Shown: in pieces, positions 4,916-50,122 of the stretch
Layout: every line of letters begins with the position of its first letter
Position numbering within the stretch: position 1 is the stretch's first letter
NCBI RefSeq assembly: GCF_013408685.1
Contig: NZ_JACBZY010000001.1
Location: forward strand, 1,798,001 to 1,862,000
Origin: Schumannella luteola
Lineage (GTDB): Bacteria > Actinomycetota > Actinomycetes > Actinomycetales > Microbacteriaceae
Direction: 5' to 3'
Length of the DNA: 64,000 bases
Notes under the pieces: generated by a model
Database searches by the model: none
Told to the model about the DNA's origin: nothing
The model's input: only the letters and a program-made list of their open reading frames with translations
Made by a program: the position numbers and the translations under genes

Positions 4916-5988
4916 GCCTCGCTCCGCCGGCGCGCGAGCAGCAGCGCGAACACCGGGGCTCCGATGAGCGCGGTCACGATGCCGACCGGCAACTCACGCG
5001 GGGCGAAGACGCTGCGGGCGAGGGTGTCGGCCCAGATCAGGAATGTCGCGCCGACGAGAGCCGAGAGCGGCAGCAGCGTGCGGTGTCCCGGTCCGACCAC
5101 GAGGCGCACGGCGTGGGGCAGCACGAGCCCGACGAAGCCGATCGACCCGCTGACCGCGACGAGGGCTCCGGTCAGCAGCGCCGTCGCGCCGAGCAGCAGC
5201 CACCGGGTGCGCTGCACGCCGATGCCGAGGCTCGCCGCCGTGGTGTCGCCGAAGCTGAAGGCGTCGAGGATGCGCCCGCTCAACAGCAGCGGGATGCCGA
5301 TCACGAGCACCGCGACCCCGGCGATCCCGACCGCCGACCAGCGCGCGCCGGCGAGCGAGCCGAGCAGCCAGCCGAGGATCTCGCGGTAGGAGTCCTGCTC
5401 CGAGCTCCAGAAGATCGCGAAGCTCGTCGCGGCGCCGGCCAGGCTCGACACGGCGACGCCGGCCAGCACGGTGCGCGTCGGCGTGATCGCGCCGAGCGCC
5501 CCGGCGAGGCCGAGCGTCGCGGCGAGCGCGAGCAGCGCCCCGCCGAACGCGGCGGCCGGCAGCGCGACGGCGACCCCGAGCAGGATGACCGTCACCGCTC
5601 CGAGCGACGCCCCCGAGGAGAGCCCGAGCAGGTACGGATCGGCGAGCTGATTGCGGGTCAGCGCCTGCATGACGGCGCCCGCGATCGCGAGCCCCGCGCC
5701 GACAGCGGCGGCCGTCAGCACGCGGGGAACCCGAAGCCCCCAGACGATGCCGTCGCGCAGCGGGTCGAGCGGGTTCGCGCCGAGGCCGAGGTGCGAGAGG
5801 ATGCCGCGCAGCACGTCGCCGACGGCGAGGTCGGCCGAGCCGATCGTCGTCGCGACCACGATCGACGCGGCGAGGGCGAGCACGAGCACCGGCGCCAGGA
5901 CGGCCGTGCGGCGACGAGCGCGCCGGCGCGCATCCACGCCGACGCCCGCGACGGCGCTGCCGCGCCCGCTGCTCGCGATGCTCACCAT
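4912..5988 (-). CDS. FecCD-family ABC permease, proposed F420-0 importer type
   Basis: This roughly 358-residue protein consists almost entirely of hydrophobic helices and has the FecCD hallmarks: RVPRVLTAAAVGAGLAIAGA, then QALTRNQLADPYLLGLSSGA, and a C-terminal LPHAVRLVVGPGHRTLLPLS. I chose the ATG at 5988, which gives a short basic N-terminus before the first helix. The open frame continues upstream only as antisense to the binding-protein gene. It would form the membrane channel for the substrate delivered by the lipoprotein encoded upstream. The gene lies 38 bases after that gene and overlaps the ATPase gene by four bases. Confidence 0.82.
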   Translation of the reverse strand: MVSIASSGRGSAVAGVGVDARRRARRRTAVLAPVLVLALAASIVVATTIGSADLAVGDVLRGILSHLGLGANPLDPLRDGIVWGLRVPRVLTAAAVGAGLAIAGAVMQALTRNQLADPYLLGLSSGASLGAVTVILLGVAVALPAAAFGGALLALAATLGLAGALGAITPTRTVLAGVAVSSLAGAATSFAIFWSSEQDSYREILGWLLGSLAGARWSAVGIAGVAVLVIGIPLLLSGRILDAFSFGDTTAASLGIGVQRTRWLLLGATALLTGALVAVSGSIGFVGLVLPHAVRLVVGPGHRTLLPLSALVGATFLIWADTLARSVFAPRELPVGIVTALIGAPVFALLLARRRSEA

Positions 5989-7070: not shown

Positions 7071-7322
7071 GGGAGCCTCTCGGTGGCGCCCGACCGGCGG
7101 TGGATCACCGTGCGGCGGGCAGGGGCGGACGGCGGGCACGAAACGGCTCGCGGATCACATGCCGCCCGAGAGTCGGCCGGCGCACCGGACGTCAGAGTGG
7201 CGACCGGGGTGCGCCCAGATTAGCGGCGCGGCGGGGGCCTGCGCCGGTCTCGTGAGCCGCGATCTCGCTCCGCCAGGCGCGGCACGTCGGCGTCCGTCCG
7301 ACTGACACGGGAGAATGGGTCA

Positions 7323-11871: not shown

Positions 11872-11877
11872 GTGGGC

Positions 11878-12177
11878 ATGAGCGCCATCGGAGTCGTCGT
11901 GTCCATCCTCTGCAAGCCGGGTCGCGGCGCCGAGCAGATCGAGGCCTTCGAGGAGGTCGCGCCGCTCGTGCGCGCCGAGGACGGCTGCCTGCACTACGAG
12001 CTGCACGAGGTCATCGGCGATCCCGACCGCTTCGTGATCCTCGAGTGGTGGGCGTCGGCCGAGGCGCTCGAGGTGCACGGCAGCGCCCCGCACATCGTCG
12101 AGCTGGGGAAGCGCACGCCGCTGTTCCGTGCCGAGCCGGCGACGCTGACCCGCATCGAGCCGGCGCACCGCCCCTGA
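11878..12177 (+). CDS. Antibiotic biosynthesis monooxygenase (ABM) domain protein
   Basis: This small protein of about 99 residues is a single ABM domain. It has a first strand IGVVVSILCKPG, a central EDGCLHYELHEVIGDPDRFV and FVILEWWASAEALEVHGSA, the arrangement seen in YgiN-type putative quinol monooxygenases. Such proteins form dimers with a ferredoxin-like fold and need no cofactor. I chose the ATG at 11878, six bases after a TAGGCT box; a GTG at 11872 is in frame but would overlap the expected transcript start. The gene stands alone between mutM and a strong hairpin. The natural substrate is unknown. Confidence 0.85.
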   Translation: MSAIGVVVSILCKPGRGAEQIEAFEEVAPLVRAEDGCLHYELHEVIGDPDRFVILEWWASAEALEVHGSAPHIVELGKRTPLFRAEPATLTRIEPAHRP

Positions 12178-12190
12178 TTCCGACAGACGA

Positions 12191-12223
12191 GAGGGCCCCG
12201 ATGCACGCAGCATCGGGGCCCTC
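12191..12223. terminator. Strong bidirectional hairpin terminator
   Basis: A perfect 14-bp stem (GAGGGCCCCGATGC and its complement) encloses a five-base loop ACGCA. No T-run follows on either side, as is common in very GC-rich actinobacteria. It sits between the monooxygenase gene and the original end of the oligopeptide-binding gene and can serve both strands. Confidence 0.85.
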
Positions 12224-12258
12224 GTCGTCCGGCGGATCACCGGCGCGCGGTGCGTCTC

Positions 12259-12403
12259 CTACTTCTTCGCGAGCGCCGCGAAGCGGAACTTGTAGGTCGC
12301 GTCGAGCGTGTCCTTCAGGCCGGTGACGCCCTTGACGGCGACGACGGTCTCCTGACCCTGCAGCAGCGGGATGATGCCGGCCGACTTCGCGACGAGCTCC
12401 TGC
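12259..12403 (-). pseudogene. Severed 3' end of the oligopeptide-binding protein gene
   Basis: On the minus strand this stretch encodes the last 47 or so residues of the oligopeptide-binding protein, starting QELVAKSAG and ending FAALAKK with a stop at 12259. It has no start of its own. It is a copy of the 3' end of the gene at 13329-14900: 135 bases are identical. The last two codons differ (Lys-Lys here, Arg-Gly in the complete gene). Because it lies directly before the strong terminator, this is most likely the original end of the gene, cut off by the insertion at 12404-13338. Confidence 0.85.
12269..12403. repeat. 135-bp perfect direct repeat, left copy
   Basis: These 135 bases are identical to 13339-13473. 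They come from the 3' end of the oligopeptide-binding protein gene and flank the inserted nuclease gene. I compared the two copies base by base; identity stops sharply at both ends. Confidence 0.95.
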
Positions 12404-12453
12404 GATGTCGTCGGTTCTTGATAGCTTCTCGCAAACAGTAGCGAGGAGTGATC

Positions 12454-13248
12454 ATGGTTACCGTCACCCAACGAGTTCGGCAGGTCAAGCAGCCGCGAGG
12501 TGGATACGTCAGCCCTCGTAGCTTGTCAGTTCGTCAATATGGAGGTCAGCACGGTTCGATGCTCGATCTAAGCGCCGAGAACGTCAGCCCGGCGCTCATA
12601 GGCACTGCGGTCGATTACCTCGTACGTCTAGCGGAGGGCGTCGACCCTACTCAGGCATTCAAAGTCTCGTTGCGGGGCGCGCAAGCGCTGGGGCCCCGCA
12701 TTCTCGATCGCGCACAAAAAGACATTGCCGCGCTGGCCCCCGGCCGGATCGACGAGGCGGCGGTAGTAGCCGCGTGCCGGCTGGCGAGCTTCGATGTCGG
12801 GTACCGCGCTGGTGCCGCCTTCTACAACCCGAAGACTAACGTGGACCCCGATGAACGCACTTCTCGACGCATTCTTGCCATGGTCGAGCGATCTCGAGCC
12901 TTCTTCCAATCGGTCGGGCCGGTCACCAAAGACGGCTTCACATTTCCTGGGGGCTACACGGACGTCATCACCAACGGCGACGGCGACTTCCTCACCGCCG
13001 ACACCGTTTGGGACTTCAAGGTCTCGGTCAAAGACCCGACGATTGAACACACGCTTCAACTACTGATCTACTTCTTGATGGGAAAACAGTCGCGTCAGAG
13101 CGAATTCGCGAGCGTGTCGCATCTCGGCGTCTTCAATCCTCGATTGAACCGCGAGTATCGCGCGGCCGTCGCGGATATCGATGCCAGCTTGCTTCTCGAG
13201 GTTTCTCGCGACGTGATCGGCTACCCGGCCGTCCCTGCTCTGACGTGA
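12454..13248 (+). CDS. Putative PD-(D/E)XK (RecB/Cas4-like) nuclease, single-gene cargo
   Basis: The 264-residue product has no assigned function. Residues 167-206 fit the core of RecB-like nucleases: GGYTD (Asp170), a turn with GDGDFL, then VWDFKV giving Asp187-x-Lys189, and finally LQLLIYFLMG, the Gln-x-x-x-Tyr motif. The N-terminal half is helical, with a conserved-looking QPRGGYVSPRSL. No helicase, methylase or other partner is encoded with it. The start at 12454 has a GAGGAG ribosome site five bases upstream; a GTG at 12448 overlaps that site. GC is clearly below the chromosome average, indicating transfer. The nuclease call is motif-based inference; a role in defence or in its own spread is possible. 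Confidence 0.65.
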   Translation: MVTVTQRVRQVKQPRGGYVSPRSLSVRQYGGQHGSMLDLSAENVSPALIGTAVDYLVRLAEGVDPTQAFKVSLRGAQALGPRILDRAQKDIAALAPGRIDEAAVVAACRLASFDVGYRAGAAFYNPKTNVDPDERTSRRILAMVERSRAFFQSVGPVTKDGFTFPGGYTDVITNGDGDFLTADTVWDFKVSVKDPTIEHTLQLLIYFLMGKQSRQSEFASVSHLGVFNPRLNREYRAAVADIDASLLLEVSRDVIGYPAVPALT

Positions 13249-13270
13249 TGCAAGTGAGCCGAATGACGAG

Positions 13271-13303
13271 CGAGGAGCCCGACGCTCTGCGTCGGACCCC
13301 TCG
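13271..13303. terminator. Hairpin after the inserted nuclease gene
   Basis: CGAGGAGCCCGACGC and its near complement (13 of 15 positions pair) enclose a TCT loop, 23 bases after the stop codon. It is a likely terminator brought in with the insertion. Confidence 0.65.
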
Positions 13304-13328
13304 AAGTCGAAGTCCGGAGTGCGCGTGA

Positions 13329-14900
13329 TCAGCCGCGGGCGAGCGCCGCGAAGCGGAACTTGTAGGTCGCGTCGAGCGTGTCCTTCAGGCCGGTGACGCC
13401 CTTGACGGCGACGACGGTCTCCTGACCCTGCAGCAGCGGGATGATGCCGGCCGACTTCGCGACGAGCTCCTGCACCGCCTCGATGTCCTTCGTGCGCTCG
13501 GCCGGGTCGGCGGCGGTGGCCTCCTTCTCGATCGCGGCGTCGATCTCGGGGCTGGTGAGTCCGTTGACGACCGAGCCGCCGGTCGACGAGTAGCCCGAGC
13601 GCAGGAAGTTGTCCGGGTCCGGGTAGTCGGGGAAGAAGCCGAGCTGGTAGGCCGGGTAGTCCTCGCGCTGCTTGACGTAACTGGTCCACTCGGTCGACTG
13701 CAGGTCGACGGTGAACAGGCCCGACTCCTCCAGCTGCGACTTGATCGTGGCGTACTCGCTCGACGAGTCGGGGCCGTAGTGGTCGCTCGTGTACTGGATG
13801 GGCAGGGTCACCGGGGTGCTGACCCCGGCATCCGCGAGGATCTGCTTCGCCGTCGAGACCGAGGGCTTCGCGCCGTAGAGGTCGGCGAAGGTCTTCGTGG
13901 CGCCGTTCTGGCCGTCGAGCACGAGGCTGTATGCGGGAGCGTAGGTGCCCTTGAAGACGTTCTCCGCGATGTCGTCGCGGTCGATCAGCGTCGCGACGGC
14001 CTGGCGGATGGCGAGCTTCTGCGCGTCGTCGGCGCCGGGCTGCGCATCCTTGTTGAAGACGAGGAAGCGCACCGAGCCGCCGGGTCCGGAGACGACCTGC
14101 AGTTTCGAATCCTTCTCCAGGTCGGCGACATCGGTGGAGGTCAGCGAGCGGTACGCGATGTCGATGCCCTCCTTCTGGATGTCGAGCTTGAGGTTCGACG
14201 AGTCGGCGTAGGCCTTGAGCACGACGTTCTTCGTCTTCGGGGCGGTGCCGTCGTAGTGCGTGTTGGCGGTCAGCGACAGCAGCCCCTTCTTGGAGTAGTC
14301 GCTGATCGCGTAGGGACCCGAGCCGATGGCCTTCGCGTCGGCGAGGAGCTTGTCGGCGGGGAAGACCTGCTCGTCGACGATCGGACCGCCCATGCTCGAC
14401 AGCACGTAGGGGAAGGTCTGGTCGTTCGCGGTCTTCAGGTGGAAGACGACGCCGAGCTCGCCCTTCTTCTCGATGCTGTCGATGCCCGAGAGCAGCGGGG
14501 CGGGGCCACTGGCGTCGTTGATCTTCAGGATGCGCTCGAACGAGAACACGACATCCGACGCGGTCAGGTCGTGCCCGTTGCTGAACTTCAGGCCCTTCTT
14601 GACCGTGCAGCTGTAGGTGGTGGCGTCGTCGAAGTCGCAGCTCTCGGCGGCCTCCGGAACCGGGGTGGTGTTGCCGGGCTCGTAGCTCAGCAGGTGCTGG
14701 TAGATCTGGTTCTGCGGCGTGAAGCTGCCGCGGTCCCAGGCGCCGGCGGGGTCGAGCGAGACGATCGCGTCGGTCGTGCCGATGACGAGCGGCTCGGAGC
14801 TGTCGGCGGAGGAGCCGCCGGTCGCGCAGCCGGTCAGCGCGAGCGCGGTCGCGCCCACGGCGAGGGCCGCGGTCGCGACGCGGATCAGGGGTCGGGTCAT
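13329..14900 (-). CDS. ABC transporter oligopeptide-binding lipoprotein (SBP family 5)
   Basis: This 523-residue lipoprotein starts with the ATG at 14900, giving a signal with lipobox LALTGC (Cys about residue 24). The mature part has the family-5 pattern: PLVIGTTDAIVSLDPAGAWD, KKGLKFSNGHDLTASDVVFS and YPAYQLGFFPDYPDPDNFLR. It would bind peptides or similar solutes outside the membrane for an ABC importer. No permease or ATPase genes lie nearby, so the rest of the transporter is encoded elsewhere. The last 45 codons are duplicated at 12269-12403, and the two terminal codons were changed by the insertion downstream. The protein otherwise looks intact. Confidence 0.9.
   Translation of the reverse strand: MTRPLIRVATAALAVGATALALTGCATGGSSADSSEPLVIGTTDAIVSLDPAGAWDRGSFTPQNQIYQHLLSYEPGNTTPVPEAAESCDFDDATTYSCTVKKGLKFSNGHDLTASDVVFSFERILKINDASGPAPLLSGIDSIEKKGELGVVFHLKTANDQTFPYVLSSMGGPIVDEQVFPADKLLADAKAIGSGPYAISDYSKKGLLSLTANTHYDGTAPKTKNVVLKAYADSSNLKLDIQKEGIDIAYRSLTSTDVADLEKDSKLQVVSGPGGSVRFLVFNKDAQPGADDAQKLAIRQAVATLIDRDDIAENVFKGTYAPAYSLVLDGQNGATKTFADLYGAKPSVSTAKQILADAGVSTPVTLPIQYTSDHYGPDSSSEYATIKSQLEESGLFTVDLQSTEWTSYVKQREDYPAYQLGFFPDYPDPDNFLRSGYSSTGGSVVNGLTSPEIDAAIEKEATAADPAERTKDIEAVQELVAKSAGIIPLLQGQETVVAVKGVTGLKDTLDATYKFRFAALARG
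13339..13473. repeat. 135-bp perfect direct repeat, right copy
   Basis: These bases are identical to 12269-12403. This copy is the present 3' end of the intact oligopeptide-binding protein gene and bounds the inserted nuclease gene on the right. Confidence 0.95.
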
Positions 14901-31212: not shown

Positions 31213-31995
31213 TCAGGCGCGCTCCCGCACCCGCGTCAGCACCTCGAGGATGACCTCGAGCACCTCGCTCGAATGCGTCAGGTGCACCATGTGCTCGGCC
31301 CCCGGCCAGCTGATGAGCGGCGCGTCGAGCGCGGTCGCCACCCGGGCGTGCGCGCGGTGGATCGGGTGGTCGGGCCGGCGATCGGCTGTCACCACGGCGG
31401 CCGGCACGCGCGGCAGCCGCGTCGGGTCGAAGCTCAGCGCCTCCTCGGCGAATCCGACGACCGCCCGACCGAGCTGGACGAAGTCGGCGTCGGTCATCTT
31501 CAGCGCGGCCGCCCGCTCGGGTGCGGCCATCCCGTGGCGCCGCGCCGAGCGCGCGGTCGTCGAACGCAGCAGTGCGCGCAGCAGGCTTCCGAGCACGGGG
31601 ACGCGCTGCAGCCGCACCCCGGCGGCGGCGGTCTTCTCGAGCTGCAGGGCGAGCGGCGGGTCGGTGATCGGCGAGGCGTCGAGCAGCACGAGCCCTGCCA
31701 CGTCGGCGGGATGGTCGCGGGCGAGCAGCAGCGCCGCGGCGGCCCCGAGACTCTGCCCGATCGCGACGACGGGGCCGACGCCGAGGCCGGCGATCGTCGC
31801 GTGCAGGGCGTCGCTCAGCCCGGCGAGCGATGCCGGCTCGGTCGACGAACCGGAACCGGGCCGGTCGTGCAGGATCACCCGGAACCCGTGGGTGGCGAGC
31901 GCCTCGGGCAGTCCCGGGAAGAAGCCCTCGACGGCTTCGGCGCCGCCGGGGAGCAGCAGGATGGCGGGTCCGGTGTCGCCGAGGATGCGCGTCAT
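31213..31995 (-). CDS. Alpha/beta hydrolase
   Basis: This 260-residue hydrolase has the nucleophile elbow GQSLG (Ser82), an early oxyanion region LLLPGGAEAV, and a C-terminal His in PGAEHMVHLTHS. A cap segment lies between about residues 125 and 190. No signal peptide is seen. It lies downstream of the D-alanyl-D-alanine carboxypeptidase gene on the same strand, with 76 bases between, but has its own TAGGGT box seven bases before the ATG. Substrate unknown. Confidence 0.87.
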   Translation of the reverse strand: MTRILGDTGPAILLLPGGAEAVEGFFPGLPEALATHGFRVILHDRPGSGSSTEPASLAGLSDALHATIAGLGVGPVVAIGQSLGAAAALLLARDHPADVAGLVLLDASPITDPPLALQLEKTAAAGVRLQRVPVLGSLLRALLRSTTARSARRHGMAAPERAAALKMTDADFVQLGRAVVGFAEEALSFDPTRLPRVPAAVVTADRRPDHPIHRAHARVATALDAPLISWPGAEHMVHLTHSSEVLEVILEVLTRVRERA

Positions 31996-32002
31996 GCCAG
32001 CG

Positions 32003-32008
32003 ACCCTA
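32003..32008 (-). promoter_or_regulatory. Candidate -10 box of the alpha/beta hydrolase gene
   Basis: TAGGGT on the minus strand, seven bases before the ATG at 31995. Confidence 0.45.
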
Positions 32009-32071
32009 GGAGCCGAGCCGCAATGCCAGCCGTGCGCCGTCAGCCGTGCGCCGAGGCCGACTGCCGCCGGC

Positions 32072-39292: not shown

Positions 39293-40297
39293 GTGAGCAC
39301 GCAGAACGTCCCCGCACCGTCGGGTATCCCGTCGTCCTCCGCGACGCCGCCGTCGCGCCGAGAGACCCTGCTGCTCGCCGGGGCGATCGTGTTCACGGTG
39401 CTCGCCTGGGCGAGCGCCTTCCTGGTCATCCGCGGAGTCGCCCCGCACCTCGCGCCGGGCGGCCTCGCCTTCGGCCGGCTCATCGTCGGCGCGCTCGCGC
39501 TCATCGTGCTGTTCGCGATCTCCCGTCGCTGGGTGACGCCGACGGCGCGCGAGTGGATGCTGCTGCTCGGCTACGGCGTGCTCTGGTTCGGCCTCTACAA
39601 CGTCGCGCTCAACACCGCCGAGACCACGCTCGACGCCGGCACGACCGCGATGATCGTCAACGTCGGCCCCATCCTCATCGCGCTCGGCGGCGGGCTGATC
39701 TTCCACGAGGGCATCTCGCGCTGGCTCGCGATCGGCTTCGTGGTCGCCTTCGCCGGCATCGTGCTGATCGGTGTCGCGAGCGGCGCCCATTTCGGCGACC
39801 TCGGCGGGATGCTGTGGTGCCTGGTCGCGGCCGTCACCTACGCCGCCGGTGTGCTCACGCAGAAGCCGACACTGCGCCGGCTGCCCGGCATCCAGGTGAC
39901 CCTGTTCGGCGCGCTCATCGGCGCGGTGGTCACCACGCCCTTCGCACCGCAGCTGGTCGGCGATCTCGGCCGGGTGGCTCACGACACCCCGCACTCGCTG
40001 AGCCCCGTCGTGCTGGGCATCGTCTACCTCGGCGTCGTGCCGACGGCGCTCGCCTTCACGACCTGGGCGTATGCGCTCGGCCGCGTTCCGGCGAGCCGGC
40101 TCGGCATCAGCACCTATGTGGTTCCGCCGATCGCGGTGCTGCTCGGCTGGGCCGCGTTCGGCGAGGTGCCGGCTCCGCTCGCGCTCGTCGGCGGGGTCGT
40201 CTGCCTCGCCGGCGTGGCCCTCAGCCGTCGCCGCTCCCGACCCGCGGTCGTCGTGTCCGAGCAGGCGCCGGTCTCCGAGGCGTCGCCCGGGCGTTGA
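39293..40297 (+). CDS. EamA/DMT-family transporter
   Basis: This 334-residue membrane protein has ten hydrophobic helices in two five-helix EamA repeats. The first includes FTVLAWASAFLVIRGVAPHL and the second GIVYLGVVPTALAFTTWAYA. Members are drug/metabolite exporters, often of amino acids or purines; the cargo here is unknown. The GTG start sits six bases after TAGCGT. Both tails are polar and probably cytoplasmic. Confidence 0.88.
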   Translation: MSTQNVPAPSGIPSSSATPPSRRETLLLAGAIVFTVLAWASAFLVIRGVAPHLAPGGLAFGRLIVGALALIVLFAISRRWVTPTAREWMLLLGYGVLWFGLYNVALNTAETTLDAGTTAMIVNVGPILIALGGGLIFHEGISRWLAIGFVVAFAGIVLIGVASGAHFGDLGGMLWCLVAAVTYAAGVLTQKPTLRRLPGIQVTLFGALIGAVVTTPFAPQLVGDLGRVAHDTPHSLSPVVLGIVYLGVVPTALAFTTWAYALGRVPASRLGISTYVVPPIAVLLGWAAFGEVPAPLALVGGVVCLAGVALSRRRSRPAVVVSEQAPVSEASPGR

Positions 40298-40331
40298 TCC
40301 CGGGCTCGCGCGGCCATCTCCGCCGCGTCGC

Positions 40332-41027
40332 TCAGCGCAGCACGCGACGCCGGTGCCGCGCGGGCGAGTGCCCGTAGCGACGCCGGAACGCGTCGATGAA
40401 CGCGGTCGGCGCGGAGTAGCCGACGCGGGCGGCGACGCTCGTGACCGGCACCCCGCGCTCGAGCAGCGGCAGCGCCGCGCTCAGCCGCGCCGCACTGCGC
40501 CACTGCGGGAAGGTCATCCCGGTCTCGGCGCGGAAGCTGCGCTGCAGCGTCTTGGCGCTCGTGTGCACCAGTGCCGCCCACTCCTCGAGGCTGCGCGCGG
40601 AATGCGGCTCGGTCAGCAGCGCCTCGGCGACCTGACGGGCGCGGTCGTCGTGCGGCAGGCACAGCGCCGCCGCTGCCGTGATCAGGCTCGGAAGCAGCTC
40701 GCGCACCTGCTCCCGCACCGGCTCGGGGTCGCGGTGCTCGCTGAGGCCGGGCTGCAGCAGCTCGCGGCAGAGCCGGTCGAGCTCGGCCGTACGACGCACG
40801 GGGGCGGTGCGGCGCATCAGGTCGGGCGCCTCGACGATCCCGATCGGGATGGGGAACACGAGGCTGTCCTCGCGGGGGAGCACCTCGTGCTCGACCCCGG
40901 CCGGGATCCAGAGCGCGGTGTCGGTGTCGACGCTCCAGGTGACGCCGTCGATGCGGATCGCGCTGCTGCCGCTCGCGACCCAGGTCAGCTCGTCGCCGTC
41001 GTGCACCGTGAGCGTCGTCGCCAGCAT
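40332..41027 (-). CDS. AraC-family transcriptional regulator
   Basis: The 231-residue regulator has an N-terminal cupin-like sensor (about residues 1-90, with ALWIPAGVEHEVLP) and a C-terminal pair of helix-turn-helix motifs, ending VTSVAARVGYSAPTAFIDAFRRRYGHSP, the AraC signature. It is divergent from the siderophore-iron operon, with an iron box between them, so it likely responds to iron or a ferric-siderophore and controls uptake. AraC-type regulators in this position are common for siderophore genes. Confidence 0.9.
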   Translation of the reverse strand: MLATTLTVHDGDELTWVASGSSAIRIDGVTWSVDTDTALWIPAGVEHEVLPREDSLVFPIPIGIVEAPDLMRRTAPVRRTAELDRLCRELLQPGLSEHRDPEPVREQVRELLPSLITAAAALCLPHDDRARQVAEALLTEPHSARSLEEWAALVHTSAKTLQRSFRAETGMTFPQWRSAARLSAALPLLERGVPVTSVAARVGYSAPTAFIDAFRRRYGHSPARHRRRVLR

Positions 41028-41138
41028 CCTGCCTCCTCCGCCTCGTCGGCGCGGTTCGTCCGTCGGTCTCTGGGCGTCGTCGGCCGAGTTTCGTCCAGTC
41101 AGCGGAGGGTCGCGTCCAGACAGCCGAGCTCCGAGTTC

Positions 41139-41157
41139 TTAGGCGAGCCTAACCTGA
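41139..41157. promoter_or_regulatory. DtxR/IdeR-type iron box
   Basis: The 19 bases TTAGGCGAGCCTAACCTGA match the iron-box consensus of IdeR/DtxR (TTAGGTTAGSCTAACCTAA) at 16 of 19 positions. The box lies 22 bases before the start of the siderophore-interacting protein gene and between it and the AraC-type gene. An iron-loaded DtxR-family repressor should bind here and shut off the operon when iron is plentiful. Confidence 0.85.
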
Positions 41158-41179
41158 TCTCGACCCCGGGAGATGCTCT

Positions 41180-42037
41180 GTGACCCTGCCCTCGACCTCG
41201 CTGTCGGCCCTCGACCTCGCGCCGAGCCCCACCGGCATCCGCACCGTGACCCGGCCGCTGCGCCGCCGCGTGCTGACCGTCGTCGACGTCCGCGACATCA
41301 GCGCGAGCCTGGTGCGGGTCGTGCTGGCCGGCGAGACGGTGGATGAGACGACCCTCGCGCCGTTCGCGCCCGTCGACCACGTCAAGCTGTTCTTCCCGGA
41401 CGCGCAGGGCGAGCTGCACCTGCCCGAGGTCGTCGATGACCGACCGGCTCATCTCGACCGCACGCGCGCCATCTTCCGCGACTACACCGTTCGCGACGCC
41501 GATCCCGCCGCAGGGACGCTCACGATCGACTTCGTGCGGCACGACCACGGTCCGGCCGGGCGCTGGGCGATCGCTGCGCGACCCGGCGACGAGATCGGCG
41601 TGCTCGGGCCCCGCGGCTCGCACGTCTACCCCGACGGGCACGCCCGTTACGTCCTGATCGCGGACGAGACGGCGATCCCGGCGCTCGCCCGCTGGCTCGC
41701 CGCACCGCTCGCCGATGCCGAGGTGCACGCGGTCGTCGTCGTCGCGAGCGCCGACGACGTGCCCGAGCTGCCGTCCCCGCCGCTCGGTCAGCGTCGCCGG
41801 ATCCAGGTCGTCGGTGCGCCTCAGCACGAGCGAGCACACGCGCTCGCCGCCGCCGTGACGCAGCTCGATCCCGCGCATCCCGACACCTTCTGGTGGATCG
41901 CGGGCGAGGCCGGAACGATCGCCCCGCTGCGACGGACGCTGCGCGACGCCGGCGTCGACCGCGGCCGTCGCGACATCGACGGCTACTGGCGCGTCGGCGT
42001 CGCCAACCTCGACCACCACGTCGAGGACGACGACTGA
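41180..42037 (+). CDS. Siderophore-interacting protein (ferric-siderophore reductase)
   Basis: This 285-residue flavoprotein of the ViuB/SIP family has the FAD-binding segment FRDYTVRDAD followed by TLTIDFVRHDHGPAGRWA, and a C-terminal NAD(P)H-binding-like domain ending WRVGVANLDHH. It releases iron from imported ferric-siderophores by reduction in the cytoplasm. The GTG at 41180 has GGGAGA seven bases upstream. It is the first gene behind the iron box. The next gene starts 158 bases later. Confidence 0.92.
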   Translation: MTLPSTSLSALDLAPSPTGIRTVTRPLRRRVLTVVDVRDISASLVRVVLAGETVDETTLAPFAPVDHVKLFFPDAQGELHLPEVVDDRPAHLDRTRAIFRDYTVRDADPAAGTLTIDFVRHDHGPAGRWAIAARPGDEIGVLGPRGSHVYPDGHARYVLIADETAIPALARWLAAPLADAEVHAVVVVASADDVPELPSPPLGQRRRIQVVGAPQHERAHALAAAVTQLDPAHPDTFWWIAGEAGTIAPLRRTLRDAGVDRGRRDIDGYWRVGVANLDHHVEDDD

Positions 42038-42195
42038 GCGCGTCCTGACGTCGGGCCGGGCATCTCGCCGCCCGGCCCGTCAGCTGCCCGACCGGACACT
42101 TCCCGCCTCCGCGCCGACTCCGGCGGCCCCGGCTCCCCGCCGTGCCGCGATCGTGGGCGCCCGCATCCGCACCACCCCACAGAACCGAGGTACCC

Positions 42196-43188
42196 ATGAC
42201 CCACGCCCGACCCCGCCTGCGCACCGCGCTCGTCGCACTCGCCGCCGCCGCCGCGCTCGTGCTGACCGGCTGCGCAGCCGACAGCGCCGACGCCGGCGAC
42301 TCCGCCGACAGCGGCTCGTGGCCGCGCACGATCGAGCACGAGAACGGCAGCACCGAGATCCCGGCGAAGCCGCAGAACATCGTCTCGACATCGATCACCC
42401 TCACCGGCACGCTGCTCGCGATCGATGCGCCCGTCACCGCGACCGCGACCACCACGCCGAGCGAGATCACGGATGACGACGGCTACTTCGCGCAGTGGGC
42501 CGACGTCGCGAAGAAGCGCGACGTCGCCGAGCTCTACCCCGACCTGACCTTCGACGAGGAGGCCGTGATCGCCGCGGCCCCCGACCTGATCGTGGTGTCG
42601 GCGTCGGGCGCCGACTCGACCGCTGAGCAGTACGACCAGCTCAGCGCGATCGCGCCGACGATCGTGCTCGACTACGGATCGCACACCTGGCAGGAGCTCG
42701 CCGAGCAGCTCGGCGAGGCGACCGGCCACGAGGCCGAGGCGAAGAAGACGGTGGCCGACTTCGACGCGAAGGTCGCGAAGGTCGCCGCCGACATCACCGT
42801 GCCCGCCGGCACCGCCAACGCGATCGTCTGGAACGGCACCGAGAACGACACGGCGTTCGCCAAGCCCGAGGGCTCGCACGGCAAGCTGCTGACGGCGCTC
42901 GGCTTCGACATCCGCGGCGCCGACGACAGCCTCGACACCAGCACGCAGACCCGGAAGGACTTCGCCTTCGTGTCGATCGAGAACGCGGTCGGCGCACTCA
43001 CCGGCGAGACGGTGTTCCTGATCAGCGGCGGCGATGCCAAGGTCGACGACCTGAAGAGCGTCCCGGTGATGGCGAACGCCCCCGCCGTCGCGTCGGGATC
43101 GCTGCACCCGCTCGGCGACACCTCGTTCCGCATCGACTACTACAGCGGTCTGCAGATCGTCGACGCGGTCGAGAAGCAGTTCGGGTGA
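42196..43188 (+). CDS. Iron-siderophore ABC transporter substrate-binding lipoprotein
   Basis: This 330-residue protein starts at the ATG at 42196 (CGAGG five bases before) with a lipoprotein signal ending LVLTGC. The mature domain is of the FepB/FhuD class: EIPAKPQNIVSTSITLTGTL at the start and AAPDLIVVSASGADS later. It captures ferric-siderophore outside the membrane and passes it to the permeases. Its stop overlaps the next start by four bases (GTGA). Confidence 0.92.
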   Translation: MTHARPRLRTALVALAAAAALVLTGCAADSADAGDSADSGSWPRTIEHENGSTEIPAKPQNIVSTSITLTGTLLAIDAPVTATATTTPSEITDDDGYFAQWADVAKKRDVAELYPDLTFDEEAVIAAAPDLIVVSASGADSTAEQYDQLSAIAPTIVLDYGSHTWQELAEQLGEATGHEAEAKKTVADFDAKVAKVAADITVPAGTANAIVWNGTENDTAFAKPEGSHGKLLTALGFDIRGADDSLDTSTQTRKDFAFVSIENAVGALTGETVFLISGGDAKVDDLKSVPVMANAPAVASGSLHPLGDTSFRIDYYSGLQIVDAVEKQFG

Positions 43189-44177
43189 GACGAGGTCTCC
43201 TCCTCCTGATCGGGATGCCGGTGCTGGCCCTGCTGGGCTGCGCCGGCATCCTGATCGGCTCGCGCATCATCGACCCGGGCACAGCCTGGCAGGCGCTCAC
43301 CGCCTTCGATCCCGGCGACGACGCACAGCTGATCGTGCGCGAACTGCGCGTGCCCCGCACGTTGCTCGCGATGCTCGTGGGCGCCGCGCTCGGCGCCGCC
43401 GGGGCGATCATGCAGGCGCTGACCCGCAACCCGCTCGCCGAGCCCGGACTGCTGGGCATCAACGCGGGGGCCGGCGCGGCGGCGGCGACCGGCATCGGGC
43501 TGGGCTTCACGGTCGGGGCGTTCGGCCACGTGCTGTTCGCCTTCGCCGGCGCCGCGATCGCCGCAGTACTGGTCGCGGCGCTCGGCGGGGCCTTCGGCGG
43601 CGGAACGGACCCGGTGCGCCTCACGCTCTCGGGCGCTGCGCTGAGCGTCGTGCTCGGCGCCTACACGCAGGCTCTGCTCATCAACTACCCCACCGTGTTT
43701 GAGGACTTCCGCTTCTGGGTCGTCGGCTCGCTGCAGGGGCGCGACTGGGAGCTCGTCCCGGCCGCCGCGGCCGTCATCATCCCGGCGCTGCTCGTCGCGC
43801 TGCTGCTCACCCGCTCGCTCAACGCCGCGGCACTGGGCTCTGATCTGGGTCGCGCGCTCGGCGCCGACCTGCGTCGCACGTGGATCGTGTCGGCCGTGAT
43901 CGTCATCGTCCTCTGCGGCGCCGCGACCGCCGCAGCCGGTCCGATCGGATTCCTCGGCCTCGTCGCGCCACTCGCGGCCCGGCAGCTCGCCGGCCCCGAT
44001 TACCGCTGGATCGTGCCGCTGTCGATGATCGGCGCGGCGGCACTGCTCACCGCGGCCGACGTGGTGGCGCGCATCGTCACACCGCCCGCCGAGACCCGCA
44101 CCGCCATCCTCATGGCGCTCATCGGCGCGCCCGTGTTCATCGCGGTCGTGCGTCGTCGCCGGCTAGTGCGGCTGTGA
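43185..44177 (+). CDS. FecCD-family iron-siderophore ABC permease (first)
   Basis: This 330-residue permease has the FecCD pattern: ELRVPRTLLAMLVGAALGAA, then GAIMQALTRNPLAEPGLLGI and near the end GFLGLVAPLAARQLAGPDY. It forms the channel as a heterodimer with the product of the next gene. Both ends overlap neighbours by four bases, so the whole set is translationally coupled. Confidence 0.92.
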   Translation: MRRGLLLLIGMPVLALLGCAGILIGSRIIDPGTAWQALTAFDPGDDAQLIVRELRVPRTLLAMLVGAALGAAGAIMQALTRNPLAEPGLLGINAGAGAAAATGIGLGFTVGAFGHVLFAFAGAAIAAVLVAALGGAFGGGTDPVRLTLSGAALSVVLGAYTQALLINYPTVFEDFRFWVVGSLQGRDWELVPAAAAVIIPALLVALLLTRSLNAAALGSDLGRALGADLRRTWIVSAVIVIVLCGAATAAAGPIGFLGLVAPLAARQLAGPDYRWIVPLSMIGAAALLTAADVVARIVTPPAETRTAILMALIGAPVFIAVVRRRRLVRL

Positions 44178-45220
44178 GCGGCGCGACGTCGCGGTCCTGG
44201 CGCGCCTGGCGCTCGCCCGGCGACGCGCTGTCGTGGCGCTGGCGCCCGCGCGCCCTCGTGGTGGCGCTCGTGATCGCCGTGCTGCTCGTGCCGCTCGGTG
44301 CCGTCGTGCTGACGACCGGCACGCTGCGCATCGAGCTCGGCGACGTGCTGCCCGCACTCTTCGGGCACGGCGAGCGGGCGGATGTGCGGGTGCTGCAGCT
44401 GATCCGCGCGCCCCGTCTGGTGACCGGCATCGCGGTCGGAGCGGCTCTCGGCATCAGCGGCGCCCTGTTCCAGTCGCTGTCGCGCAACCCGCTCGGCTCG
44501 CCCGACATCGTCGGCTTCCTCACCGGCGCCGCGAGCGGCGCGATCGTGGCGATCCTCGTGCTGGGCGCCCCTCCGCTGGGCATCGCGGCGGCGGCCGTGA
44601 TCGGCGGGGTCGTCACCTCGGCGCTCGTCTACGTGCTGTCGTTCCGCCGCGGCGCGACGGGCGGATATCGGCTCGTGCTCGTCGGCATCGGAGCGGGAGC
44701 TCTGCTCGGCGCGCTCAACGACCTGCTCATGACCCGGTCCGCGGCCGAGAACGCGATCGTCGCACAGCTCTGGCTCACGGGGACGCTCAACGCCCGCACC
44801 TGGGTGCATGCGCTTCCCGTGCTGATCGCCGTGGTGGTTCTCGTCGTGCCCGCGGTGGCGCTCGCGCGCGGACTCTCGGCACTGGAGCTCGGCGACGACG
44901 TCGCCACCCAGTCGGGGATGCGCGTCGAGGCCGTGCGCATCGGCACCCTCGCCGTCGGCATCGGTCTGGCCGCCCTCGCGGTCGCCGCGTCGGGGCCGGT
45001 GTCGTTCGTCGCGCTCGCCGCCCCGCAGATCGTGAAGCGGCTGAACGGCAGCGGCGGCCCGTCGATCGTCGGCTCGGCGCTGCTCGGCTCGGCGCTGCTG
45101 GTCGGAGCCGACGTCCTCTCGACCACGCTGCCCCTGCCGGTCGCGGTGCCCGTCGGGCTCATGACCGGGCTGCTCGGCGGCGTCTACCTGATCTGGCTGC
45201 TCGGTCGGAGGCGCCGATGA
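44174..45220 (+). CDS. FecCD-family iron-siderophore ABC permease (second)
   Basis: This 348-residue permease pairs with the one before it. It has LIRAPRLVTGIAVGAALGIS, GALFQSLSRNPLGSPDIVGF and a C-terminal VSFVALAAPQIVKRLNGSGG. The basic N-terminus (about 30 residues) precedes the first helix. The GTG at 44174 overlaps the previous stop, and its own stop overlaps the ATPase start. Confidence 0.92.
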   Translation: MSGATSRSWRAWRSPGDALSWRWRPRALVVALVIAVLLVPLGAVVLTTGTLRIELGDVLPALFGHGERADVRVLQLIRAPRLVTGIAVGAALGISGALFQSLSRNPLGSPDIVGFLTGAASGAIVAILVLGAPPLGIAAAAVIGGVVTSALVYVLSFRRGATGGYRLVLVGIGAGALLGALNDLLMTRSAAENAIVAQLWLTGTLNARTWVHALPVLIAVVVLVVPAVALARGLSALELGDDVATQSGMRVEAVRIGTLAVGIGLAALAVAASGPVSFVALAAPQIVKRLNGSGGPSIVGSALLGSALLVGADVLSTTLPLPVAVPVGLMTGLLGGVYLIWLLGRRRR

Positions 45221-46134
45221 GCGCCCCCGCCGACGGCCCCCGAGGAGACCACATGACCACCGCATCCACTCGCCTCGAAGCCCGCGATGTGACGCTCGCC
45301 TACGACCAGCGTGTCGTCGCCGAGGGGCTCAGCGTCGCGATCCCCGACGGACGCGTGACCGTGATCGTCGGGCCGAACGCCTGCGGCAAGTCGACGCTGC
45401 TGCGCTCGCTCGCCCGCCTGCTCGCGCCGTCGGCGGGAACGGTGCTGCTCGACGGCGACGACGTGCGCTCCTACCGCACGAAGGAGGTCGCGCGCCGTCT
45501 CGCTCTGCTGCCCCAGTCGGTCGAGGTCCCCGACGGCATCTCGGTGCTCGACCTCGTCGCGCGCGGCCGTTTCGCGCACCAGCGTCTGCTGCGGCAGTGG
45601 TCCCGTGACGACGAGGTCGCCGTGCGCGCGGCGATGGCGGCGACCGGCGTCGACGAGCTCGCCGATCGCGGCGTCGGCGAGCTGTCGGGCGGGCAGCGGC
45701 AGCGCGTGCTGCTGGCGATGGTCCTGGCGCAGCAGAGCGGACTGCTGCTGCTCGACGAGCCCACCACCTTCCTCGACCTCGCCCACCAGTACGAGGTGCT
45801 CGAGCTGTGCCGACGACTCAACCGCGAGCGCGGCGACACGGTCGTGGCGGTGCTGCACGATCTCAACCAGGCGGCGCGCTACGCCGACCATCTCGTGGTC
45901 ATGGCGGCGGGCGAGATCGTCGCCGAAGGCCGCCCCGCCGACCTGCTCGACGCGGAGCTCGTCGAGCGCGTCTTCGGTCTGCCGGTGCGGGTGATCGCCG
46001 ACCCGGTCACCGGTGCGCCGCTCGTGATCCCGCTGCCGGGCGGCGGCGGCAGTGCCGCCAGCGGCGGCGGCAGCGGCGCGGAGGTGGTTGCCGGCTCAGG
46101 GCACCGTCCGGACGCTGACGCGAGGACGTCGTGA
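45217..46134 (+). CDS. Iron-siderophore ABC transporter ATP-binding protein
   Basis: The product is 305 residues. It has Walker A GPNACGKSTLL, with Cys in place of the more usual Gly or Ser, the Q-loop in LLPQSVEVPDG, the signature LSGGQRQRVLLAMVLAQQ and Walker B LLLLDEPTTFLD. It is of the FecE/FepC type and drives the two permeases. The C-terminal tail (about 45 residues) is Gly and Ser-rich. The ATG at 45217 overlaps the permease stop; an ATG at 45253, behind GAGGAGA, is an equally good start. Confidence 0.93.
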   Translation: MSAPADGPRGDHMTTASTRLEARDVTLAYDQRVVAEGLSVAIPDGRVTVIVGPNACGKSTLLRSLARLLAPSAGTVLLDGDDVRSYRTKEVARRLALLPQSVEVPDGISVLDLVARGRFAHQRLLRQWSRDDEVAVRAAMAATGVDELADRGVGELSGGQRQRVLLAMVLAQQSGLLLLDEPTTFLDLAHQYEVLELCRRLNRERGDTVVAVLHDLNQAARYADHLVVMAAGEIVAEGRPADLLDAELVERVFGLPVRVIADPVTGAPLVIPLPGGGGSAASGGGSGAEVVAGSGHRPDADARTS

Positions 46135-47417
46135 TCGGCACCGCGCTGCGCGCCGCCGCGACTCCACGCGCCGCCGACCGGGGCCCCCTGCGCATCGAGA
46201 GCGCAGCGCTCCGGGCTCTGCGGGCGGGCGTGCCGCTCGCCGAGATCGCCGCGGCGGGACATCATGCGGGGGAGTGGCCCGTCATCGGGCCGGCCGTCGA
46301 ACGCGAGGGCGTCCGCCTGCGCGAGGTGACCTTCGTGGCCGACGACACCGGCGACCCAGCGCTCGTGCACCTCAACGGCATCACCGACGCGCACCGCCGC
46401 GACGTGCGCCCCGCGCTGCTGCAGCCGATCCCCGGCCGTGAACTGCGTGCGCTCGCCTATCTCCTCCCCGAGGGACTGACCGCGTCGTATCGGCTCGCCA
46501 CTGTCCCGGATCTGCCGGGCGACGCCGGTTCCACCCGCGAAGGATGGATGCGGGTGCACCGTGCGGGTCGCCCCGATCCGCGCAACCCGCACGGCATCCG
46601 AACCCCGCTCGGCGGGGCGTCGTCGCTGCTGCGGATGCCGGGCTGGCGGGCGCACCCCGCTCGTGAACGGCTCGCCGCGGGCGCCGCGCCGGAGCACGAC
46701 CTGGCGACGCGCGAACTGCGCGTGCCCGGGGCGCGGGGTGAGCGCTCGGTGTGGGTCATCACCCCGGTCGCCGGGCCCGTGCCCGACACGCTCCTGGTGC
46801 TGTTCGACGGCGACACGTGGATGGACGCCGACGTTCCGGCGCTGCTCGCCGCCCGTCCCGGCCCGCCGGTCGCGGTCGCGGTCGTGTCGTCGATCTCGCT
46901 CGAGGCGCGGTCGGCCGAGCTGCCGCATCCCGACGTCATCGCCCGCGTGCTCGGCGACGAGGTGCTGCCCGCGATCGCGTTCGCGCTCGGGATGCGGCAC
47001 CGCCCCGATCAGATCGTCGTCGCCGGGCAGAGCTACGGCGGGCTGGCGGCCGCGGCTCTCGTCGCGCTGCATCCCCGCGTCGCGCGGACGGGGATCGTGC
47101 AGTCGGGCTCGTTCCACTTCCGTGCGGCGGCAGCCGACCATCCTCCGGCGGAGCGGCCAGGAGACCTGATCGAGCGGATGCGCGGCCGGTCGCTCGCCGG
47201 TCGGCTCGTCGTGCAGGTCGGAACCGAGGAACCCGACCTGCACCGCCTCGCCCGCGACTTCGTCGCCATCGCGCGCGACACTGGGATCGAGCTCAGCTCG
47301 CGCCTCGTCGCGGGCGGTCACGACTACGCGTGGTGGGTCGACGGCGTGCTGTTCGCCCTCGATGAGCTGCTCCTCCCGGTCGCGGTTGGAGCACGGCCGC
47401 AAGATCTGTCAGAATAG
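46131..47417 (+). CDS. Enterochelin esterase-like protein (ferric-siderophore esterase)
   Basis: This 428-residue protein has the Fes domain arrangement: an N-terminal beta-rich region with [20 protein letters not shown], and a C-terminal esterase D-type alpha/beta hydrolase with GQSYGG (Ser301) and GGHDYAWW (His397). It would hydrolyse the ester backbone of a ferric-siderophore in the cytoplasm to free iron, alongside the reductase at 41180. The GTG overlaps the ATPase stop. The last bases of the gene also hold a promoter for rpsP. Confidence 0.9.
47386..47415 (+). promoter_or_regulatory. Candidate promoter of the rpsP operon
   Basis: TTGGAG (47386-47391) and CAGAAT (47410-47415), 18 bases apart, lie at the end of the esterase gene. 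Transcription from here would give a leader of about 125 bases before rpsP. Confidence 0.5.
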
Positions 47418-48248: not shown

Positions 48249-49003
48249 GTCCTCGCAAGCCGCCCCGCACGCCCCGCACTCAGCTGCGGGTCGCTCGCCT
48301 GGTGAAGGCCCACGGCCTCAAGGGCGCCCTCAAGCTCGAGCTGTACACCGACGATCCCGATCGTCGCTTCACGCCCGGCGCGACCTTCGCGCTGCAGGTG
48401 CCGACCTCGTCGTCGTGGCACGGCAAGTCGCTCGAGCTGGCTGAGCTGCGCTTCTACAACGGCAGCCCCGTCGCCTTCTTCGTCGGCGTCGACGACCGCA
48501 CCGCGGCCGAGACGCTCGTGAAGGCGGTGCTCTGGATCGATCAGGATCTCGACGAGGTCACCGACGAAGAGGATGCGTGGTTCGACCACCAGCTCGTCGG
48601 CCTCTCCGCGGTGCGCGACGGGCAGACCGTCGGCCAGATCGCCCGCGTCGAGCACCTGCCCGCGCAGGATCTGCTCGTCGTCGCGACCGACGCCGGCGAG
48701 GTGCTCGTGCCGTTCGTCAAGGCGATCGTGCCGAGCGTCGACGTCGAGGCCGGCATCGTCACGCTGACCCCGCCGGTCGGTCTCTTCGAGGACATCCCCG
48801 ACGCGGATGCCGCCGATGCCGCCGAGCGCGAGTCGGGATCCGGCGACGGCGGCAGCCGTCGCCCGCCGGTGCCGCGCCGCACCTCGCGTCGTCGCCCGGC
48901 CGCGGCCGGCGGCGCCGAGAAGCCGTCTGCTGACGACACGGCCGACGTCGCGGAGCCCGCCGGGTCCGACGACGCCGAGGCTTCGGAGACCGACGCCCAG
49001 TAG
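48245..49003 (+). CDS. rimM: Ribosome maturation factor RimM
   Basis: This 252-residue protein has the RimM N-terminal barrel (RVARLVKAHGLKGALKLELY) and the PRC-barrel with VPFVKAIVPSVDVEAGIVTL. It assists 30S assembly by binding S19. Beyond about residue 180 a 70-residue tail, first basic then acidic, extends it past the usual 170 or so residues. The GTG start overlaps the KH gene. TrmD, its usual direct neighbour, is displaced by an antisense gene. Confidence 0.95.
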   Translation: MSPRKPPRTPRTQLRVARLVKAHGLKGALKLELYTDDPDRRFTPGATFALQVPTSSSWHGKSLELAELRFYNGSPVAFFVGVDDRTAAETLVKAVLWIDQDLDEVTDEEDAWFDHQLVGLSAVRDGQTVGQIARVEHLPAQDLLVVATDAGEVLVPFVKAIVPSVDVEAGIVTLTPPVGLFEDIPDADAADAAERESGSGDGGSRRPPVPRRTSRRRPAAAGGAEKPSADDTADVAEPAGSDDAEASETDAQ

Positions 49004-49068
49004 GCAGCTCCGGGCACGACGTCGGCTCAGGGGGTACACGGCGACATCATGCGTTGTCATCGGGCATC

Positions 49069-49884
49069 TCAACCGACGCTGTGCTCTCGTCGCCGCCGAG
49101 CACCCCACTTGTGCTCGTGGCGGCGGACGACCGCGAGGATCTCGGCCAGCACCTGCGGCCACTCACTGACGACGCGGTGGTAGCCGGCGCGGATGCGCAG
49201 ATAGCCGAGCGCCGTGAGAGCAGAGTCCCGACGGCGATCGCGTTCTCGAGCTTCCGCGGTGGAATGCCATTCGTCGCCGTCAAGTTCGACGACGAGCCGA
49301 TCTCCGATCAGCAGATCCACTCGACCGACGCCGTGGATCGTGACCTGCAGTCGCGGGCGAATGCCGGCAGCGATCAGGCGGAGTCGCGCCAGGGTCTCGA
49401 TGCCTGACTCGCTGCGCGGGTCGTGCGCAGCGATCGCTCGGACGAGTCGACGGTCGGGCTGAGACGGTGGAAGTTCGCCGATGACACCGCGGTTCATCGC
49501 GGAGTCGATCGCGCATACGAGCTCTTCGTGGGTCAGGCAGGTCGCCGCGACGACGAGCGCGGTCATCGGGTCATCCACTCCGTCGCGCGCAGAACCGCTG
49601 AGACGGTGAACTCGCGTCCGGTGCGCACGGTGCTGGCGAGCGTGGCCGTCGATCCGCACGTGCTCCGATGCACGGAGCACCCAGATCCCGTGTCGGCGCA
49701 GAGCTCCCGAGCAGGTGACCGTCCCGCCGCAGGCAACCGCGTGCTCGACGAGAGGATCGACGATGCCCACCGCGTACCACCCTCGCCGAACACGACGCGC
49801 CTCGCCCGTCGCGAGCGCGCGCTCGATGTCGTGGCGCGTCGCGCCCTCGTCACGGAGCATCCTGTAGCTGAGTATCCGGGTCAC
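49069..49884 (-). CDS. AbiEi-like N-terminal domain plus DUF559 protein
   Basis: This 271-residue protein has two parts. Residues 1-80 resemble the winged-helix N-terminus of AbiEi-type antitoxins (ILSYRMLRDEGATRHDIERA, then RRVRRGWYAVG). Residues 180-262 fit DUF559, a fold related to very short patch repair endonucleases: GVGRVDLLIGDRLVVELDGD, with Asp and Glu of a PD-(D/E)XK-like site and WHSTAEARERDRRRD after it. Genes of this type are frequent in actinobacteria, and their function is not settled. No toxin partner is encoded next to it. It lies antisense between rimM and trmD, interrupting a conserved order. The GTG at 49884 is the likely start. Gaps on either side (65 and 250 bp) show only a small CGTCTC/GAGACG dyad. 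Confidence 0.75.
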   Translation of the reverse strand: MTRILSYRMLRDEGATRHDIERALATGEARRVRRGWYAVGIVDPLVEHAVACGGTVTCSGALRRHGIWVLRASEHVRIDGHARQHRAHRTRVHRLSGSARDGVDDPMTALVVAATCLTHEELVCAIDSAMNRGVIGELPPSQPDRRLVRAIAAHDPRSESGIETLARLRLIAAGIRPRLQVTIHGVGRVDLLIGDRLVVELDGDEWHSTAEARERDRRRDSALTALGYLRIRAGYHRVVSEWPQVLAEILAVVRRHEHKWGARRRREHSVG

Positions 49885-50122
49885 GCGCCCGAGGATGTCG
49901 TCTCATCGAGACGCGCTCGGAACGACAACCGTCATCGGTCGACAACTCGCGGATCAATCACCCTGTGGAGGAATCGGACCGCAGATCTCGGCCCATCGCG
50001 CGGTGCACGGTGTCGGGCGGGGCGCGAGGTGGTTTCGCATAGTCGAGCGACGGCTCGACTGAGCCGACACTGTGCAGGTGGCCGAAAGGCTCGACGGCGC
50101 CGGCCCGGCGTCGCGCCGCGGC

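Follow-up and report, generated by a model that had tools for sequence, protein, structure and literature searches.

A candidate nuclease gene between two copies of an oppA 3' end in Schumannella luteola

The insertion and its duplicated gene end

The DNA analyzed here (hereafter the window) is a 64-kb stretch of the Schumannella luteola genome, which is assembled as a single 3.75-Mb contig with an estimated completeness of 100%. It contains a gene of the candidate defence family PDC-S61, predicted to encode a PD-(D/E)XK-like protein and located between two direct repeats of the 3' end of an oppA-like gene for a solute-binding protein, here called oppA (Table 1). An initial annotation of the sequence had described perfect 135-bp repeats around a one-gene segment of 935 bp with lower GC content, and coordinates, composition and a repeat search all agree with this description. 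The two copies are 100% identical. In the direction of oppA, the left copy reads on to Lys-Lys-stop and the right copy to Arg-Gly-stop, both as first reported. The right copy belongs to an oppA gene that is intact; the host gene has indeed survived.

Table 1. Features of the insertion locus, with positions in the window
Feature	Position	Strand	Basis
ABM-domain monooxygenase-like gene, convergent left neighbour	11872..12177	+	
Left spacer with hairpin (centre ~12206)	12172..12268		
Left repeat copy, an orphaned oppA 3' end; reaches Lys-Lys-stop at 12259-12268	12269..12403	-	
Low-GC segment of 935 bp between the repeats	12404..13338		Repeat borders, composition
PDC-S61 family gene, PD-(D/E)XK-like, 264 residues	12454..13248	+	PADLOC profile and alignment
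Right spacer with hairpin (centre ~13286)	13249..13338		
oppA-like solute-binding protein gene, intact, host at the insertion	13329..14900	-	SBP_bac_5, E 6.6e-73
Right repeat copy within intact oppA; reaches Arg-Gly-stop at 13329-13338	13339..13473	-	

The 135-bp pair is the sole direct-repeat family of at least 60 bp reported in the window (18-base seed), and a whole-genome search with the 135 bp gave full-identity matches at just these two positions. The segment between the copies comprises the gene with 50 bp before it and 90 bp after it, and the remaining open reading frames (ORFs) in it overlap this gene in other frames. Its GC content is 0.605 versus 0.721 for the window. It also holds the lowest GC of the window, as one of 1262 sliding 935-bp segments is as low and this one is located on the insert. 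At third codon positions (GC3), the insert gene has a value of 0.697 versus 0.943-0.967 in five native genes. A Pfam scan of the insert gene and of four further ORFs that lie in the insert or overlap it gave no match and revealed no recombinase or integrase, in agreement with the initial annotation. The sequence observation is correct and goes beyond chance, and layout and composition support a foreign one-gene insertion.

The likeness of the left and right spacers was rejected as evidence. Their score of 45 exceeds that of dinucleotide shuffles (mean 24.2, maximum 42, n=1000), but 44/325 control hairpin pairs also reach 45. These controls are 26 other hairpin stretches in both orientations, some pairs of which may be orthologous stretches. 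The best scores of the two spacers against the 26 stretches are 41 and 39.

The candidate nuclease and its relatives

Over residues 1-258 the insert protein matches the PADLOC candidate family PDC-S61 (PDLC05052; profile positions 1-251 of 253, E 1.3e-97, 324 bits). Residues 124-241 match the profile RTasPDDEXK (PDLC03797), a reverse-transcriptase-associated PD-(D/E)XK profile, with E 6.6e-9, which is consistent with the PD-(D/E)XK-like core proposed earlier. All 50 aligned members, the window protein counted, match both profiles. Sequence searches of PDB and Pfam with the protein gave no useful PDB match and no Pfam nuclease match. The pattern D...(D/E)xK plus QxxxY is that of the PD-(D/E)XK nuclease superfamily; it is present in the window protein and conserved, and we take it to resemble that of RecB/Cas4-type nucleases.

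The list of active-site residues first proposed had to be amended. Asp187-x-Lys189, Gln202 and Tyr206 hold, since D187, K189, Q202 and Y206, together with D176, D178 and W186, are present in 50/50 sequences of the alignment named A2. Asp170 does not, being D in 19/50 of them, and the conserved acids are Asp176 and Asp178. A2 is made of 50 hand-picked stop-free stretches, the window protein among them, most of which were gathered by peptide patterns spanning residues 183-190 and 224-232. The conservation of W186, D187 and K189 is therefore partly fixed by selection; D176, D178, Q202 and Y206 fall outside the collecting patterns. In alignment A1, a pattern-free collection of 12 sequences, D176, D178, W186 and K189 are found in 12/12. 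One A1 sequence, a near full-length relative from the same taxonomic family (L002, 1489-2382), is without D187, Q202 and Y206, and may for this reason be inactive as a nuclease. The profile matches support a PD-(D/E)XK-like candidate defence protein. The insert gene product is probably a nuclease, with a putative function in phage defence. In the available part of one source, PDC-S61 is tabulated for a single S. thermophilus strain, and no functional test of it appears there.

Relatives of the gene were found in 31 plasmid records (10/31 fetched), one phage record, nine viral contigs and in genomes, for which the best 80 of 177 loci were taken. The viral scan gave no relative with the single protein as query and nine loci with the alignment as query. 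The locus table holds 99 loci (80 genome, 9 viral and 10 others), L018 being omitted as the same record as L101, and repeats were listed for all of them. PDC-S61 is rare in the taxonomic family of the host: any match was found in 5/398 genomes, the window's own counted, and just 2 of these 5 have a match near full length. In one genome, G487 (L008-L011), the match is split into several stop-bearing frames, apparently a decayed copy.

Around the relatives there are 182 neighbouring ORFs, of which 104, mostly the longer ones, were scanned. They include nine type I methylase subunits, two Abi_2 proteins and two type I specificity domains. In a PADLOC scan of the neighbours, nine type I methylases and four PDC-S34 are among the first 25 of the 212 families listed. 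These matches are not independent, because several come from related streptococci. Such neighbourhoods fit a defence gene carried in varied places. On one plasmid (L020, 3814-4836) and one viral contig (L103, 4414-12822), PDC-S61 lies within tRNA arrays of 18 and 34 tRNA genes, respectively.

oppA ends in relatives and the origin of the duplication

Five genomes of the genus were searched. The closest relative among them, G118, has an OppA protein with 97% identity to that of the window, versus 86% for G173. Both genomes show the same arrangement of the ABM-domain gene and oppA, with a single oppA end each and without PDC-S61. A comparison with relatives that lack the segment had been suggested to locate the junctions. 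It did provide gaps without the gene beside one oppA end, but the spacers in these gaps are unlike both sides here; the left spacer is not significantly similar to that of either G118 or G173.

The oppA gene of G118 ends with ALARG-stop, as does the right copy, and that of G173 with ALGRS-stop. Compared by eye, the 8 bases that directly follow the repeat match G118 at 7 positions for the right copy and at 2 for the left. The initial annotation had described the right copy as giving the host gene a new end. Because G118, which is without the insert, ends oppA identically, Arg-Gly-stop is a natural oppA allele and not made by the insert. More distant oppA genes end with ALAK-stop or ALGK-stop (L153, L154, L157, L162 and L163), and their ends include K, TK and RS. 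As such K-ending relatives exist, Lys-Lys-stop is also a plausible natural end. We conclude that two oppA-end alleles meet at the insertion site. Lys-Lys-stop had been regarded as the original end. The sequence alone does not decide this point, with G118 ending in Arg-Gly and the TAG of the left copy being common to the relatives; the polarity of the site is something we infer.

In G173, the gap between the ABM-domain gene and oppA is occupied by a Phd/YefM antitoxin gene, whereas the gap of G118 contains no gene. Since the antitoxin gene sits beside a single oppA end, this gap can gain small genes without such a scar. In the G173 locus (L148, 1794-2368), the antitoxin gene is followed by a 90-residue ORF whose product looks, by eye, like a RelE-type toxin. 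A long conserved hairpin (GAGTTGCCCA...TGGGCAACTC) follows oppA in both relatives (L147 and L148), between the ABM-domain gene and oppA, and is missing here. In the fetched flanks of thirteen further oppA relatives (L152-L164, ~75% DNA identity) there is no ABM neighbour, and none of their genomes gave a PDC-S61 match in the 398-genome search. Elsewhere in the window, three stretches (31233-32070, 40234-47383 and 48980-50112) have no counterpart at the syntenic place of G118; they have no long flanking repeats.

In our opinion, the arrangement is probably the scar of ordinary recombination around a horizontally acquired PDC-S61 gene and not an element of its own. This account starts from what is observed, i.e. 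the layout, the foreign composition, the gene family and the natural occurrence of an Arg-Gly end in G118, where the insert is absent. The route of entry and the order of events would be as follows. An acquired PDC-S61 gene would enter between the convergent oppA and ABM-domain genes on a fragment comprising 135 bp of an oppA 3' end, Arg-Gly-stop, its terminator and the adjoining nuclease gene. Within those 135 bp, the fragment would recombine with the recipient oppA 3' end, either as a small re-circularised molecule through one crossover or as a linear fragment joined by homology at one end and illegitimately at the other. The last 135 bp of the recipient gene would remain as an orphan copy, together with Lys-Lys-stop and its terminator. 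oppA would stay intact because the homologous join falls inside the gene. RecA-dependent recombination between the repeats should in turn be able to remove a 1070-bp circle, after which oppA would end in Lys-Lys-stop. The host genome encodes a Competence-family protein (PF03772), likewise found in 10/14 control genomes, which makes DNA uptake conceivable.

The initial annotation had instead suggested that the locus could be a minimal module for defence, mobile or homing-like, which brings a homology arm along, and had proposed to look for a duplicated 3' end of the neighbouring gene beside each relative. This was done for 84 loci (L101 and short-flank loci omitted) or 85 loci (L101, L095 and short-flank loci omitted), with control ORFs that were taken from the same loci, vary in number between settings and are not independent. 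With E <1e-5 and 1.5-kb flanks, direct repeats flank PDC-S61 in 3/84 loci versus 12/312 control ORFs (p 1.0). With 2.5-kb flanks the figures are 8/85 versus 17/364 (p 0.11, or p 0.04 once four control ORFs sharing a PDC-S61-spanning repeat pair are removed). Flanking repeats were rejected as a trait of the PDC-S61 family, their frequency being no higher than in controls at the strict setting and mildly raised with the wider flanks. Three of the eight cases are terminator-like (L039, L047 and L108), and the others are an imperfect hairpin (L068), a tRNA-Leu end (L078), a paralogous stretch (L049) and what by eye are diverged coding-sequence ends (L055, 125 bp, 89%; L066, 49 bp, 80%). Among the 85 relatives whose flanks were long enough, none clearly carries a duplicated end of an intact neighbour gene, with L055 and L066 as ambiguous cases. 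The two tRNA-array loci, L020 and L103, are among the weaker flanking-repeat cases.

Some of these loci deserve description. In L047 (5477-5513 and 6763-6800), a terminator-like hairpin is present in two perfect copies of 27 bp, with PDC-S61 and small ORFs between them. This hairpin is located at the 3' end of a convergent gene, which inspection by eye and a single Asparaginase match from the neighbour scan identify as an asparaginase. Exact copies occur at just two places in that genome, plus one mismatched copy elsewhere. In L078 (5548-5642, 8355-8404 and 10476-10570), copies of a tRNA-Leu 3' end with terminator-like sequence surround PDC-S61 and an ORF whose product by eye looks like an Abi-type protein, which suggests successive tRNA-targeted islands. 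The L055 repeats are at 642-766 and 5708-5832, on either side of PDC-S61, and both L066 copies (5773-5821 and 7171-7219) end with a similar GKKYK-x-CC tail and then a stop. In L094 from Bifidobacterium (1219-1320 and 2595-2696), a 222-residue frame that has no Pfam match lies between 102-bp direct repeats of 98% identity bearing a strong hairpin; L095 is likewise arranged.

Several points weigh against the recombination account. The TAG stop of the left copy is common to G118 and G173, and it is the right copy that differs. At least one further change is needed, because the hairpin in the gap of G118 and G173 is on neither side here. All 135 bp are identical though the spacers differ strongly, which calls for a recent origin within one species or for conversion. 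The identity of oppA to G118 is even, at 96.0-97.7% in five 300-bp windows; an import of oppA from a G118-like donor was accordingly rejected, no mosaic being visible along the gene. At E <0.01 and 2.5 kb, repeats are commoner around PDC-S61 (16/85) than around controls (34/426, p 0.004). The L055 and L066 repeats on both sides could be displaced gene ends, although neither is tied to an intact gene. Finally, neither a donor nor a second strain of the species turned up, so that the event itself is not observed.

We consider it unlikely that the 935-bp segment was inserted with a long target duplication, at a break with a 135-bp offset whose target was copied, so that Arg-Gly-stop would be the first sequence of the insert. 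The two perfect copies do have the layout of a target duplication, and restriction genes offer a precedent in the available parts of PMC3031569 and PMC4978471. However, the end of the insert equals, at 7/8 bases by eye, the last two oppA codons of G118, which is unlikely for a random end. The locus could also be what is left of an integrative element, or a satellite of one, the integrase having been lost or acting in trans, with the oppA 3' end as attachment site and the repeats as attL and attR, and we regard this as quite improbable. Islands that duplicate the 3' end of their target gene are well known, and among the relatives PDC-S61 lies between duplicated tRNA-Leu ends in L078 and between duplicated terminator-like hairpins in L039, L047 and L108. 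Against it, the Pfam scan of the insert revealed no recombinase, and 135 bp is long for an attachment core. An assembly artefact, i.e. a collapsed or mis-joined repeat, is practically negligible. Perfect repeats are a common site of misassembly, but the copies differ in their ends and flanks, the genome is a single contig with an estimated completeness of 100% and the composition of the insert is foreign.

There remains the minimal homing-like element, in which the nuclease would cut the oppA 3' end and a carried homology arm would restore the gene. A single nuclease-like gene, direct repeats and an intact host gene agree with it, as do the mild excess of flanking repeats at lax settings and the L047 hairpin copies, exact nowhere else in that genome. 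We nevertheless find it very unlikely. The search for duplicated neighbour ends gave the outcome described above, and some relatives adjoin type I methylase genes (9/104 scanned neighbours) or lie in tRNA arrays. The oppA relatives L152-L164 lack the ABM neighbour in the fetched flanks and come from genomes outside the PDC-S61 matches, and the supposedly rebuilt end is a natural allele. It is just as doubtful that a one-gene, recombinase-free defence cassette cycles as a 1070-bp circle through RecA and its captured 135-bp host-gene end, possibly stimulated by the nuclease, with the host gene kept whole whether the cassette is there (Arg-Gly-stop) or gone (Lys-Lys-stop). As a whole, the first interpretation is partly supported, its reading of the locus as an element being weak.

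Significance and likeness to known systems

The locus is thus most likely a scar of the recombination by which a candidate defence gene was acquired, and an element is not supported and very unlikely. It offers a clean single case of how a lone defence gene can be gained without a mobility gene and with its neighbour unbroken, and could be lost again through the repeats. It therefore bears on the turnover of solitary defence genes. If PDC-S61 promoted its own capture, the significance would be greater; nothing here shows such promotion. The corrected active-site residues and the alignment will be useful for testing the uncharacterised PDC-S61 family.

With respect to protein families, the match to PDC-S61 is full-length and nothing in the window protein differs from it, the family itself being only a candidate single-gene phage defence. 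The likeness to RTasPDDEXK is partial, and no reverse transcriptase is present in the insert. With respect to the arrangement, restriction-modification genes are a case for which Kobayashi and co-workers put forward insertion with long target duplication (PMC3031569 and PMC4978471, as far as the available parts go). In such insertions (Nobusato et al. 2000, as cited), a defence-type gene likewise lies between long direct repeats of host sequence without a transposase. Unlike these restriction-modification cases, the window is without a methylase and one end of its insert resembles a host-gene allele.

Closer in mechanism to the recombination that we favour are integrated circles in E. coli. 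According to the accessible part of PMC3240628, 14 sequenced events had duplications of a gene end (lacZ) of 109-950 bp around the integrated DNA, for which the authors infer single crossing-over with a circle missing part of its homology; four events were apparently true one-sided ones. That case differs in being a laboratory plasmid with clones selected as Lac-negative, whereas oppA is intact here. For type VI secretion system loci of Vibrio, the portion of PMC5361080 at hand proposes a related one-sided mechanism that leaves old parts downstream. At such effector and Rhs loci, an incoming module with a homologous anchor likewise leaves the old 3' part downstream, the cargo being an effector-immunity module and the mechanism itself a proposal.

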